From assembly GCF_009730915.1 (NCBI RefSeq), contig NC_052494.1, positions 248,001 to 312,000 on the forward strand: 64,000 bases of DNA, given 5' to 3'. Positions 30,812-59,365 of the stretch are shown here, one piece after another; position 1 is the stretch's first letter, and every line of letters starts with the position of its first letter. The notes under the pieces were generated by a model. It worked only from the letters and a program-made list of their open reading frames with translations. It was not told the origin of the DNA and made no database searches. The position numbers were made by a program, and so were the translations under genes. Origin of the DNA: Dioscorea cayenensis subsp. rotundata (lineage: Eukaryota > Streptophyta > Magnoliopsida > Dioscoreales > Dioscoreaceae).

Positions 30812-32792
30812 TGCTCTCACCGCAATCTAGGGTTTCGAATTGGCCTTGAAAAGCTTCGAATTTGGGGATTTTGGGGGGAATTTATGGAGCGAGGGAAGAA
30901 GAGGGTTTTAAGAGAGTTTGATCGAAGAGGGAGACTTAGTTCGACTCGGATCAATCGGACGGTCAATATTGATTTTAGATCTTGATGATGAAATCTGGAC
31001 CGTTTATTTATTTTGTTGGTTTATCCTTTGGTGAGGATATGTATCTTTTTAAAAATTTTATTATTTAAATGAAGATTTATATTATCTAATGGATTTTTAG
31101 TTTTTGGTGGTTATCTATTTAATTTTGGTTTTTTTTTAAAATTTGAAGTACTATATATTCTCCGAATTTAAGAATGGCATGTTTTTCTGAATTTTAAAAA
31201 TTTAAGAAATTTAGGGGAAGTGTTTAGTTTGTTTTTTTAACCAAAAATAAAATAAAAGTTGCCTTTTATATATATAATAAAATAAGGACACTTTTTATAG
31301 AGACTAATAAATGCTCATATACCAAGAAATTGTTGGTTAGTTTATATATTTTATAAGATAAGTAACTATAAAAAGACCAAAAAAAATATATATTAAAAAA
31401 AAATTACTTTCGATTTAGTTCCAATAATTAAAGTTGTTTTGTGGGTAAAAATTTAGTTGTCTAAATATTAAAGTTCTTGAAAATATAGATTTATAGGTTT
31501 ATAAAATACTAATAATATTTTGGTTTAAGATTATGATCTCATATTCTCACTGATATTTTTAAAATTTGAATAATTCTATGCATTTTTTATCTCATATATT
31601 TAAAAAAAAATTAATAACATTTATTGATTATATCAAAATACATCTGTTAAAGAAATTTTAAAAAAATCTACAAATAAATTTGATTCAATCTTTCAAAATC
31701 AGGATGTTGCGATAAAATGATATGCAAAATTATTTATAATCCTCTAAATAATTTTTTTCATAGTTCAATTTTCATAATGTGTAGAATCTCTTTAATGGGA
31801 TGATAAAATGGATAAGATAAAATAAATATGTCTAGAATTTATTTTTATTTTATTTATTTATTATTATTATTTTTTTTGGGGAGATATAAGAGCCAAACAA
31901 TTAATTTATTACTTTTGAAATATATAAAAACAAAACAATCAACTTATTGATATGGAGACCAAAAAGATTCTTCCAATGTATTATTTTTGGCTAAACTATT
32001 ATCTTGTTTTCATTTTTCATTTAATGAGCCAATTGAAAAAGTAAAAAAATTATGCTATTGAGCTATTTTAATTAATCTTATGAGAGGATCAGCATGAGAA
32101 CGGACCAAAGAAAAATATTATTATTATTATTATTATTATTATTTTGCTCTTGAGGTTGGGGACAAAAGGCATGTGAACAACGGAATAGTTTAAAAAAAAA
32201 AAAAATTTAAATATATAACTACAACAAAAAAAATAAATTTATTTATTTATATATAATTTATATCATATCCTATTACTGTATATTTACAGTTCACCACACA
32301 AACTTTCCTCATATTCTTCCTAGTTATTTTATCAATCCTAACCAAATTATCTTTAACCATATTTTGTTTAAAATTCCATAATTACTTAAGAGAAGATATT
32401 TATATAATATGCTATTCAAAAGTAGAATGGACATTTCACCTGTCATCTTGAATTAAAGTTTAAAAATTAAATTCTCAAAAAGAATAATTTTTCTTGGAAT
32501 CCATAGTCTTGAAAAAACGGGAGTAGTGATAATTTTCTGACCTCATTGTTTTTTTTTTTTAAAAAAAATTTGCAATTAACACGAGGGCAGGTTGCAAACT
32601 CTCTCCCACATCACAACCTTATGAGGTTCGGCTTCAATACAATATACATGTTTAGATTAGAGGTCTATTGGAATAAAATCGAACACGATCTAACGGCACT
32701 CAATGGACAAAAAAAAAACTATCGATATGTAATGAACCCTTATTTATCATATAAGACTTATACACTTAACTACTTACATATAAACGAATACT
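30812..32792. other. hnRNP promoter and AT-rich spacer
   Basis: 30812-30985 is GC-richer and is the likely hnRNP leader. Beyond it the sequence is AT-rich, with an (ATT)n run at about 32128-32152. A GC-richer stretch at 32575-32790 (around GGTTGCAAACTCTCTCCCAC) looks like a fragment of a repeat I cannot classify. Confidence 0.5.
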
Positions 32793-33924: not shown

Positions 33925-35691
33925 TATCCCACTCTCATCATTGGGCCCAGCGGGGCCCGCTCGGGTCCATCTAGAAAATTTAGATTTTAATGTGGCCCAA
34001 GCCCAAATCTACCGAACCTCATGAATAGTTTGGACCAAAGTGGATTGGCCCAAATTTTAAATATGAAACCTATGACCGAGCTCATGAACTTGGCTTTTTG
34101 AATCAATTATTGGATCAAGCTAGTCGTTGTTATTTTCTTTTTTAACTTTACTTAATTAATATGTTATGATTTAAAAATAAATTAATAAAAATATGAACGA
34201 ACAATTTTATTAATTGATTAATATTATTATATTTCACTCAAGAAAAATATTACATCACTAAAATATAAGTAAATTTTAACTAGGTTGACACCTACCTACT
34301 CATTCTATCATTGTATATTCTTCATGATATTTTTTTAAAAATTTGTATCATTAATATTTAATAATAAATCCAATGGGTCAGCTTATAAGCTAGTCCGTTG
34401 GATCAGCTGAGAAAAAAAAATTCAAAAAGACTAGCCCGCGGCCGGCTCATCATTTAAAAATAATATACATATCTAATTTAAAGTTTTTTTGAGTCAGACT
34501 TGAACTGATCTTAAACATTAACTTTAAATTGAGTTTAGATTGAGCTTAAACTGACATTGGGCATGTTTACTTTAAATTGAGTTTAGATTGGGCTAAACTG
34601 ACATTGGGCCGTTCTGTGGACCTCGGACCAAATGATGATGGCCTTATCGGTTGGTCTCTGCAAGTCTCGGAAGCAATTAGCTCTTGCTATTTGACAGAAA
34701 GCTTATTAGCTTTTAATATACTTCATTTCTTTGTTAATTGAATTGTTTACCTATTGCTTCGGCTAAATGTTTAAAATTTAAAAAAAAAAATTGTGTTATC
34801 ATTATAATCAAAATAAGACTTAAACATCTAATTAAAAATATGACATTATAAACAATATATTTCACAAGCGCTTGCACAGACCTCACTTCTTTTTTTCTTT
34901 TTTTTTGATTAAAACAAATGGTTAAAACTCATCAAAACAATATTTTGTGGGAAAAGACTTGTTCATTACCCATTTTATGACTTCAAGAGGCAATAATAAT
35001 AAAAAAAAATAAAAATCAATACAGTGCATGCCAAGAATGAACTGCTATATAGTAATAATTTCAGTATCACAATAAATTTCTTGAATTTTTTGCATTTGTA
35101 ATGAATCTAACAAAACAAATATTCCAATTCAATTTAATTTCAAATATTTCATGAATTTTACTATTAAATCCACCAAACAGACACACAAACACCATCTTGG
35201 GTTAGCTAAGTTAATACAAGTCAGAGATATAACAAATGAACTAATTTCCAAACTTAAACAGAAACTTCATTTAAATTTAATCTCTTTAAATACTTAAATC
35301 CCATTGCATGACCAATTCTCAACCTCCCAATCCAATACCAACTAAGCATTGGCATCCTGTATGTCTTCCAGTCTTCACCTCAAAATCAAATTATCAAAAA
35401 AACAGATGTCATGAATTCAATAAGTGGTCTATAATCACTGCAAATTACATTACTAGAAATCAGGAGTTGAGAATTCCATATTAAGACAAGATAAAAAAAA
35501 TCAGGGATTTCTGAATCAAAACATGCAACAGAAATTTCATAAAACCATATATAATGCATTCTGAGTTCAAATCTTTGCAAAGGTCTCTGTAAAGTTATCT
35601 TCAAAAGTAGGTGTTAAAATTGAGAGGTAAACAAGTACCATTAGTTTGAAATTAAGGGGGAAACTGACCAAACTCTAATAATAAAATTGAA
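33925..35691. other. Spacer with a 48-bp tandem duplication
   Basis: CTTTAAATTGAGTTTAGATT occurs at 34522 and 34570, each followed by a near copy of GGGCTAAACTGACATTGGGC, giving a 48-bp-period pair at about 34521-34616. 33940-34660 is GC-richer than its surroundings and may be a decayed repeat. 35180-35690 may be the 3' part of the minus-strand snoRNA transcript. No open frame of note. Confidence 0.5.
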
Positions 35692-35779
35692 GGTGCTCAT
35701 ATTCTATTGGTGTATAAGAGTCTGTCATGCCAAATAGCCATAGCATTCAGAACGAGGAATTTTCTATAATCATAGCACC
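35692..35779 (-). ncRNA. Box C/D snoRNA, 18S rRNA guide, copy 1
   Basis: 88 nt on the minus strand. The terminal stem pairs GGTGC at the 5' end with GCACC at the 3' end. C box AUGAUUA is at 35767-35773, an internal CUGA (D') at 35747-35750 and a D box AUGA at 35697-35700. The nucleotides before CUGA, AATTCCTCGTT, are complementary to AACGAGGAAT(T) of 18S rRNA near its 3' end, a conserved segment recalled from memory. By the D+5 rule the target is the A in AACGA. The non-consensus C and D boxes compensate one another (U-A in place of G-C). Confidence 0.75.
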
Positions 35780-36833
35780 ACATGAATGATATTACCTTAA
35801 ATTAAAAGGTAACACAAACACAATTAAAGCACACAATTTACAAAAAACATCCCAAATCAAAGAAAAAGTGTAGCTTTACATTATATAACACAACACTGCA
35901 AACCTCATAAAGCAAAGAGTAATGATACTTCCTAGTATTAAAGGAAAATTCTTTGGATGTAATATAAAAATCTCATGTTTCATAATCATAGCACCACATG
36001 AATGATAGATATTACCTTAAATTTAAACATAATATGAACACAATCAGAGCACAGAATTTACACAAAACATCCCAAACCAAAGAAAAAGTGCAGCTTCATA
36101 GTATATAACACAACAATGCAAAACTCATAAAGCAAAGCGTAATAATTACTTCAATTATTAAAACAAAATTTAGGAGTGTATAAAAAAGTCTGTCATGCCA
36201 AATAGCCACAGCATGCAAAACTCAATGATATTGCCTTAAATCAAACATAATATAAACACACTCAAAGCACTCAATTTACATAAAACATACCAAATCAGAG
36301 AAAAAGTGTAGTTTTATATTATATAACACAACAATGCGAGACTCAAAAAGCAAAGGTAAATAATAACTTCCAAGTATTGCAATAAAATTGTATGGGTGTA
36401 TATAATATAAACATAACATACCACATGAATGATATTACCTTAAACTAAACATAATATAAACACACTCAAAACACACAAATTACAAAAACCATACCAAATC
36501 AAAGAAAAAGCATAGCTTTATAATATATATATAGCACAACATTGCAAAACTGATAAAACAGAGGTCAATAATAGCTTCAAGTATTAAAGAAAAATTTTAT
36601 GGATGTATAAAATAAAAATATAATATACCACATGAATGATATTACCTTAAACTAAACACAATACAAACACACTAAAACATACAAAATCAAAGAAAAAGTG
36701 AAGTTTTATATTATATAACACATCATTGCAAAACTCATAAAGCAAAGAGTAAAAATAACATCTCAAGCATTAAGAAAAATTCTGAAATGTAAATAAACAA
36801 GAAGAAAAATGGATGATGATAAGAGGAGGAGAT

Positions 36834-36931
36834 GGTGCTCATATTCTATGGGTGTATAAGGAGTCTTTCAAGCAAATGGATTTAATCCATAAGCACTCTC
36901 AGAACGAGGAATTTTTTATAATCACAGCACC
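36834..36931 (-). ncRNA. Box C/D snoRNA, 18S rRNA guide, copy 2
   Basis: 98 nt on the minus strand, paralogue of the snoRNA at 35692-35779. GGTGC/GCACC terminal stem, C box GUGAUUA (36919-36925), D' CUGA (36899-36902), D AUGA (36839-36842). The guide AATTCCTCGTT is identical in both copies. The middle differs: here ATGGATT and AATCCAT form an internal hairpin, replacing unrelated sequence in copy 1. Conservation of boxes and guide against a diverged middle suggests selection. Confidence 0.75.
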
Positions 36932-37009
36932 AACTCAGGATCCCAATACTTAATCTAATCCTAAACAAAACAAAACAAAACAAAAAAATCGAATTTTTAT
37001 GATGATTTG

Positions 37010-37106
37010 TGGCTCAGACACGCACAAATAAATTCATCACAAAGAATTAGGTCCTCGGATTGATGGAAAACTCAGAATCGAGAAACAAATTGAGTCGTCA
37101 CAGCCA
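37010..37106 (-). ncRNA. Box C/D snoRNA with two guides matching U6 snRNA
   Basis: Canonical double-guide layout on the minus strand: stem TGGC (37103-37106) pairs with GCCA (37010-37013); C box GUGACGA (37095-37101); D' CUGA (37072-37075); C' GUGAUGA (37034-37040); D CUGA (37014-37017). The D guide ATTTGTGCGTGT pairs over about 12 nt with ACACGCACAAAT of plant U6 snRNA. The D' guide TTTCTCGATT pairs over 10 nt with AATCGAGAAA, a few bases further along U6. D+5 places the modified bases at the G of ACACG and the G of AATCG. The U6 sequence is from memory; some species have U for the second C, which would give a G-U pair. Two independent matches to neighbouring sites make chance unlikely. Confidence 0.8.
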
Positions 37107-37662
37107 AGCAATAAGAACGCACAGCAAATGTTCGATGAAATGTCGAGGCGAGCGTAACCCTAATCCGATAGATCTCTGATCGCCAATCAGGGCTTTAAAC
37201 GCCTCCAGTGACTATCGGAAGCAGCGGCGCCGGCCAAAACCATCGATCAGAGAACCGATGGCGGCCGAATCCATGAACCGCACTTCTTCCAAAGATTCGA
37301 AAAACGTATAAAATAAAGAAAAATTTTGAAATTTTACAAGGAAAATGCATAAATCTTTTATATTAAAAGAATAAAAATCCAAATTTTAGAAAAAGATACA
37401 CCTTAAAACACAAACCCTAATGGATCTGGAGAAGATCAAGAACCGCAATCACATCAAAGATTGAAGCCCAACGCAAGAGAAACGTATAGAATCATTCATA
37501 TCATAATAAAATTAAGAGAGAAAACCGCAAATTTAGAAGGAGAAATACCTCAAAACATAAACCCTAATGGATCTCGTCGGAGATCGGAGAGGACTCGGAG
37601 GAGATGATGATATAAATAGATGGAGGCGAGGGTTTGAAGAGAAAACCCTAAACCCTAATTTT
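37107..37662 (-). promoter_or_regulatory. Promoter and leader of the minus-strand snoRNA host transcript
   Basis: On the minus strand two telo-boxes (TTAGGGTTTAGGGTTTT, 37641-37660) precede a GC-rich leader. The module GATCCATTAGGGTTT..TGTTTT.AGGT occurs twice (about 37536-37576 and 37400-37436 in plus coordinates), each ending in a plausible splice donor, so there may be alternative first exons. The region between 37107 and 37300 is GC-rich and contains only a 20-codon frame (MDSAAIGSLIDGFGRRRCFR). Telo-boxes are characteristic of plant ribosomal-protein and snoRNA genes. Confidence 0.5.
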
Positions 37663-53459: not shown

Positions 53460-54459
53460 NNNNNNNNNNNNNNNNNNNNNNNNNNNNNNNNNNNNNNNNN
53501 NNNNNNNNNNNNNNNNNNNNNNNNNNNNNNNNNNNNNNNNNNNNNNNNNNNNNNNNNNNNNNNNNNNNNNNNNNNNNNNNNNNNNNNNNNNNNNNNNNNN
53601 NNNNNNNNNNNNNNNNNNNNNNNNNNNNNNNNNNNNNNNNNNNNNNNNNNNNNNNNNNNNNNNNNNNNNNNNNNNNNNNNNNNNNNNNNNNNNNNNNNNN
53701 NNNNNNNNNNNNNNNNNNNNNNNNNNNNNNNNNNNNNNNNNNNNNNNNNNNNNNNNNNNNNNNNNNNNNNNNNNNNNNNNNNNNNNNNNNNNNNNNNNNN
53801 NNNNNNNNNNNNNNNNNNNNNNNNNNNNNNNNNNNNNNNNNNNNNNNNNNNNNNNNNNNNNNNNNNNNNNNNNNNNNNNNNNNNNNNNNNNNNNNNNNNN
53901 NNNNNNNNNNNNNNNNNNNNNNNNNNNNNNNNNNNNNNNNNNNNNNNNNNNNNNNNNNNNNNNNNNNNNNNNNNNNNNNNNNNNNNNNNNNNNNNNNNNN
54001 NNNNNNNNNNNNNNNNNNNNNNNNNNNNNNNNNNNNNNNNNNNNNNNNNNNNNNNNNNNNNNNNNNNNNNNNNNNNNNNNNNNNNNNNNNNNNNNNNNNN
54101 NNNNNNNNNNNNNNNNNNNNNNNNNNNNNNNNNNNNNNNNNNNNNNNNNNNNNNNNNNNNNNNNNNNNNNNNNNNNNNNNNNNNNNNNNNNNNNNNNNNN
54201 NNNNNNNNNNNNNNNNNNNNNNNNNNNNNNNNNNNNNNNNNNNNNNNNNNNNNNNNNNNNNNNNNNNNNNNNNNNNNNNNNNNNNNNNNNNNNNNNNNNN
54301 NNNNNNNNNNNNNNNNNNNNNNNNNNNNNNNNNNNNNNNNNNNNNNNNNNNNNNNNNNNNNNNNNNNNNNNNNNNNNNNNNNNNNNNNNNNNNNNNNNNN
54401 NNNNNNNNNNNNNNNNNNNNNNNNNNNNNNNNNNNNNNNNNNNNNNNNNNNNNNNNNNN
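53460..54459. other. Assembly gap, 1000 N
   Basis: Exactly 1000 N, a round number normally used as a placeholder, so the true distance is unknown. Open frames crossing it are artefacts. Confidence 1.
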
Positions 54460-59076: not shown

Positions 59077-59161
59077 TGGCATTCAGAATGAGTAGGAGGA
59101 TTTGAATCTCTCAGAGACACAGAGATCTCAGAAAAAAATTTAATTCATCATCATCATGCCA
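59077..59161 (-). ncRNA. Box C/D snoRNA, possible 25S rRNA guide
   Basis: 85 nt on the minus strand. A 6-bp terminal stem TGGCAT/ATGCCA (59156-59161 with 59077-59082). Overlapping C box candidates AUGAUGA at 59145-59154. D box CUGA at 59083-59086. CUGA also at 59111-59114 and 59128-59131 as D' candidates. The D guide CCTCCTACTC can pair over 10 nt with GAGTAGGAGG, which I recall in the large-subunit rRNA segment GACGAGTAGGAGGGC, with a mismatch nearer the D box. The RNA itself is well supported; the target is tentative. Confidence 0.7.
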
Positions 59162-59273
59162 CCATCTTCAAATTTTCATCTAAGAAAAGCAATAAAAAAC
59201 AAACTTTTCACTTAAAAACCTAGAAAAAAAAACTTTTTTTTAAAAATATAAAACAAGGTAATTAGGGATGGAA

Positions 59274-59365
59274 TCCTCTCAGACAAATGCCTCGATTGTC
59301 CTCACGATGAATGGAATGGATATTATAGGACTCGTCATCTATTTCCATTATCTCATCATCGAGGA
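59274..59365 (-). ncRNA. Box C/D snoRNA, 25S rRNA guide (snR13-like target)
   Basis: About 92 nt on the minus strand. Terminal stem TCCTC (59361-59365) with GAGGA (59274-59278), C box AUGAUGA (59353-59359), D box CUGA (59279-59282). The D guide CGAGGCATTTGT pairs over 11-12 nt with (A)CAAATGCCTCG of large-subunit rRNA, just before the conserved TCATCTAATTAGTGACGCGC. D+5 selects the last A of AAA, which from memory matches the yeast site guided by snR13. The internal C'/D' pair is weak. Confidence 0.75.

Follow-up and report, generated by a model that had tools for sequence, protein, structure and literature searches.

A probable snoR126 relative in Dioscorea cayenensis subsp. rotundata, a box C/D snoRNA predicted to guide methylation of U6 at G75 and G84

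An Rfam cmscan of the window, i.e. the whole stretch of 64,000 nucleotides that was analysed, assigns the minus-strand element at 37009-37106 to snoR126 (RF01426), at 68.0 bits (gathering score 39), with an E-value of 9.1e-11 and a covariance model that is matched end to end (1-101 of 101 positions). The window yields five Rfam hits at or above the gathering score, all of them to box C/D snoRNA families, namely snoR8a (two matches), SNOR75, snoZ105 and snoR126 itself; a scan at a loose E-value returned 13 rows, and the eight additional ones each stay under the cut-off of their own family. The parts of the element and the features that accompany it are listed below.

37009..37106, minus strand: snoR126 box C/D snoRNA (RF01426, full-length model match)
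37103..37106, minus strand: 5' arm of the terminal stem, TGGC (cmscan and script)
37095..37101, minus strand: box C, GTGACGA, with one departure from RTGATGA (sequence and script)
37076..37085, minus strand: D' guide, TTTCTCGATT, predicted to pair with U6 nt 80-89 and to place D'+5 on G84 (on an assumed plant U6 sequence)
37072..37075, minus strand: box D', CTGA (sequence and script)
37034..37040, minus strand: box C', GTGATGA (sequence and script)
37018..37029, minus strand: D guide, ATTTGTGCGTGT, predicted to pair with U6 nt 71-82 and to place D+5 on G75 (on an assumed plant U6 sequence)
37014..37017, minus strand: box D, CTGA (sequence and script)
37010..37013, minus strand: 3' arm of the terminal stem, GCCA (cmscan and script)
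36833..36934, minus strand: snoR8a, copy B (cmscan, RF01284, 63.6 bits, gathering score 37)
35691..35782, minus strand: snoR8a, copy A (cmscan, RF01284, 86.2 bits, gathering score 37)
37156..37658, minus strand: presumed promoter or leader (motif script)

Box C/D RNAs are recognised by boxes C and D and by a closing stem, and in this element box D and the 4-bp stem are exact while box C is one base off. The original prediction had read a C/D snoRNA with four boxes and a terminal stem in canonical order, and indeed complete C, D', C' and D boxes were found in that arrangement, enclosed by the 4-bp stem. When compared to the Rfam consensus of snoR126, the guides agree at 9 of 10 nucleotides (D') and 11 of 12 nucleotides (D); box C reads GTGACGA where the consensus has GTGAuGA, the D'+1 base is a T in place of the consensus G, which gains a further pair with the assumed plant U6, the segment joining D' to C' is unlike the consensus, and the match is 98 nt long against a model of 101 positions. 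The substitution in box C could weaken the formation of the kink-turn, and the stem that closes the RNA is short, at 4 bp. As a free RNA the element folds no better than its shuffled versions (z -0.82; of 200 shuffles, 42 equalled or exceeded its stability), and such stability is not a defining trait of box C/D RNAs.

Copy B of snoR8a lies 74 bp downstream of snoR126 on the same strand, and this box C/D neighbour (RF01284) carries guides that are unlike those of snoR126. The two snoR8a copies are separated by a tandem array of 4.9 copies of a unit of approximately 220 bp (35766-36779, 76% matching), in which the units are spaced by 184-220 bp (repeat families D2 and D3). An alignment of six hand-chosen stretches of unequal length placed snoR8a remnants at some of the array junctions, namely, near 36002, a 5' piece that retains box C and, near 36220, a piece from the middle of the gene, and little snoR8a is left in the array stretches near 36424 and 36612. 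The region 35691-36934 of the minus strand reads as two intact snoR8a genes flanking a decayed tandem array of about five units, and it appears to be the trace of past duplication and loss of snoRNA copies.

Upstream of snoR126, in the presumed promoter or leader, five AACCCTAA motifs (plus-strand reading) start at 37156, 37413, 37560, 37644 and 37651, the count for the whole window and both strands being 18, and a single TGGGCT motif is found on the minus strand at 37470. We take AACCCTAA to be the telo-box and TGGGCT to be the site II motif, both with a presumed role in the promoter. The same region contains a 61-nt direct repeat (37367-37574, 79% identity, spacing 147), which includes a telo-box motif.

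A position within the intron of a protein-coding gene was considered for the snoRNA and rejected, as the longest minus-strand stop-to-stop frame listed for the interval 31.1-38.7 kb has 75 codons; the nearest minus-strand frame with a recognisable protein sequence, RRM-like by eye, starts near 30826. A non-coding host transcript with introns may instead be the source of snoR126. Plant snoRNA genes reside mostly in polycistronic clusters, according to a review (PMC5758608).

A box C/D guide comprises about 10 nt upstream of D or D' and has its target at the fifth nucleotide, and in this register the element displays exact pairings of 12 and 10 nt with the 3' part of the assumed plant U6. The original prediction had matched both guides to a 19-nt U6 segment, and the matches hold: an exact 12-nt run with the D guide covers nt 1-12 of the segment, and an exact 10-nt run with the D' guide covers nt 10-19. 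On the full assumed plant U6, on which G75 and G84 are numbered here, the D match grows to 13 nt when the C of box D is counted, while D+5 falls on G75 and D'+5 on G84, in agreement with two target bases nine nucleotides apart. At each of the eight U6 positions given in Table 3 of PMC8053127, this assumed sequence carries the expected letter. At full length the D and D' pairings span U6 70-82 and 80-89 and overlap at nt 80-82, so that a single snoRNA cannot occupy the two full-length sites of the same U6 molecule simultaneously; under the 10-bp limit on guide pairing stated in PMC8053127, the overlap falls to one nucleotide. With a score above the gathering cut-off and guides for U6 G75 and G84, both features of the snoR126 family, the minus-strand element is very probably a snoR126 relative, a box C/D snoRNA aimed at these two residues.

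The Arabidopsis counterpart is found in the ribose-methylation profile obtained by RiboMeth-seq (Wu et al. 2021, PMC8053127), Table 3 of which gives eight U6 sites, including methylated G75 and G84, both with SnoR126 as the assigned guide, the same target residues as predicted here. Since this table names both residues together with SnoR126, the pair of sites is already in print. What stands of the original prediction is a double-guide box C/D snoRNA for two U6 G residues, whereas its remark that no well-described plant guide existed for the pair has to be withdrawn in view of the RF01426 match and of Table 3. As far as its sequence tells, the gene is already known in kind, an ordinary relative of Arabidopsis snoR126.

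The sections of PMC8053127 considered here also report 19 snRNA sites with guides for 14 of them, 13 of the 19 sites being common to human; assignment of the snRNA guides relied on pairing, their location in Cajal bodies was presumed with localisation not characterised, and no snoR126 mutant appears in these sections. That study scored the terminal 20 nt of its RNAs, at both ends, by hand only, and U6 G84, which is followed by 19 nt in the assumed U6, may lie at the edge of the scorable range. The conservation of snoR126 was judged from Rfam and from this Arabidopsis paper. Raw sequence alone has led to a known plant U6 guide and to exactly the two sites that are assigned to it in Arabidopsis (PMC8053127, Table 3). 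If expressed, the gene would extend the snoR126 U6 guide to one more plant, and the match changes no general view.

The U6 box C/D guides of vertebrates share their chemistry and their target RNA with snoR126 and differ in the sites. The human U6 sites are Am47, Am53, Cm60, Cm62, Cm63, Am70 and Cm77, and to our knowledge none of these is equivalent to plant G75 or G84. The first description of snoR126 is reportedly, and likely, that of Chen and Wu in 2009.

Altogether, we infer a course of events in which the snoR126 RNA would probably be cut from a polycistronic precursor that it presumably shares with snoR8a. Within the snoRNP, where box C/D RNAs are bound by fibrillarin, NOP56/58 and the 15.5K protein, the D guide would pair with U6 starting at nt 71 and put G75 at the methylated position, while the D' guide would pair with nt 80-89 and do the same for G84; fibrillarin would then add a 2'-O-methyl group at both residues, on the assumption that the RNA is expressed and U6 methylated in Dioscorea. 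The D' guide contains the 7-nt word TTTCTCG, which is also present in an assumed plant U2 5' end, and this U2 end and the guide are complementary to one and the same stretch of the assumed U6, the computed duplex being more stable with U2 (-16.3 kcal/mol) than with the D' guide (-12.9 kcal/mol). Given the overlap of the two pairings and the word common to U2, G75 and G84 would probably be modified one after the other, ahead of U2/U6 pairing. We take the U2-U6 pairing at the D' target to be helix II. In human complexes, U2/U6 helix II adjoins the Lsm ring of U6, as described in PMC11208138. U6 travels through the nucleolus and then the Cajal bodies, as outlined in the review cited above (PMC5758608).

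As a control, the longest exact pairing run with U6 through the fifth base was scored within the 14 nt preceding each CTGA site of the window. Among the 315 sites on both strands the two snoR126 boxes score 12 and 10, and the other 313 have a best score of 8, reached at two sites, with lower values at the rest. When U6 was shuffled 20,000 times by mononucleotide, the D' guide attained at least 10 in 25 cases and the D guide at least 12 in one, while at least 8 for both guides together was attained in 0 of 20,000. A chance match to U6 was rejected on these two controls. An RNA that matches U6 by accident and in reality guides another target, such as rRNA, would moreover have to match U6 exactly at each of its two guides, both times in the D+5 register, and to coincide with the same two U6 residues reported for Arabidopsis in Table 3 of PMC8053127; with U6 as the one target scanned, nothing was found in favour of this explanation, and we give it virtually no chance. 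Pattern searches in contig collections added little: the U6 pattern had 0 matches in viral contigs, and the two-guide pattern of snoR126 had 0 matches in viral and 0 in genome contigs, these being viral, bacterial and archaeal sequences and as such little informative. A different doubt concerns the gene itself, which could be a decaying or weakly functional copy whose work is done by another, intact copy in the genome. The single deviation in box C would fit such a state, as would the adjoining snoR8a array with its duplicating and decaying snoRNA copies; nevertheless no damage is seen in either guide, in boxes C', D' and D or in the terminal stem, the Rfam score clearly exceeds the cut-off, and decay of this copy appears quite unlikely.

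The U2 word of the D' guide also raises the possibility that snoR126, besides guiding methylation, serves as a chaperone that keeps the 3' region of U6 free of U2 until assembly. Such a role would be compatible with the methylation guide and not exclusive of it, and it draws on TTTCTCG and on the U6 stretch that guide and U2 have in common. However, resemblance to U2 is unavoidable for any guide to that region; it follows from the shared U6 target and is not itself evidence of a further function, and the greater stability of the U2 duplex likewise argues against a snoRNA able to hold U2 off. We consider a chaperone role very unlikely. The further idea that snoR126 mimics the U2 5' end, with G84 methylation tied to an assembly checkpoint that delays U6-U2 pairing, is likewise very improbable. 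A guide for the methylation of U6 G75 and G84 is the reading that we prefer.

Two other features of the window were recorded. A run of exactly 1000 N occupies 53460-54459 and is the sole such run in the window. Finally, a second snoRNA pair is present at 59083-59364 on the minus strand, made up of SNOR75 and snoZ105 with 111 bp between them.
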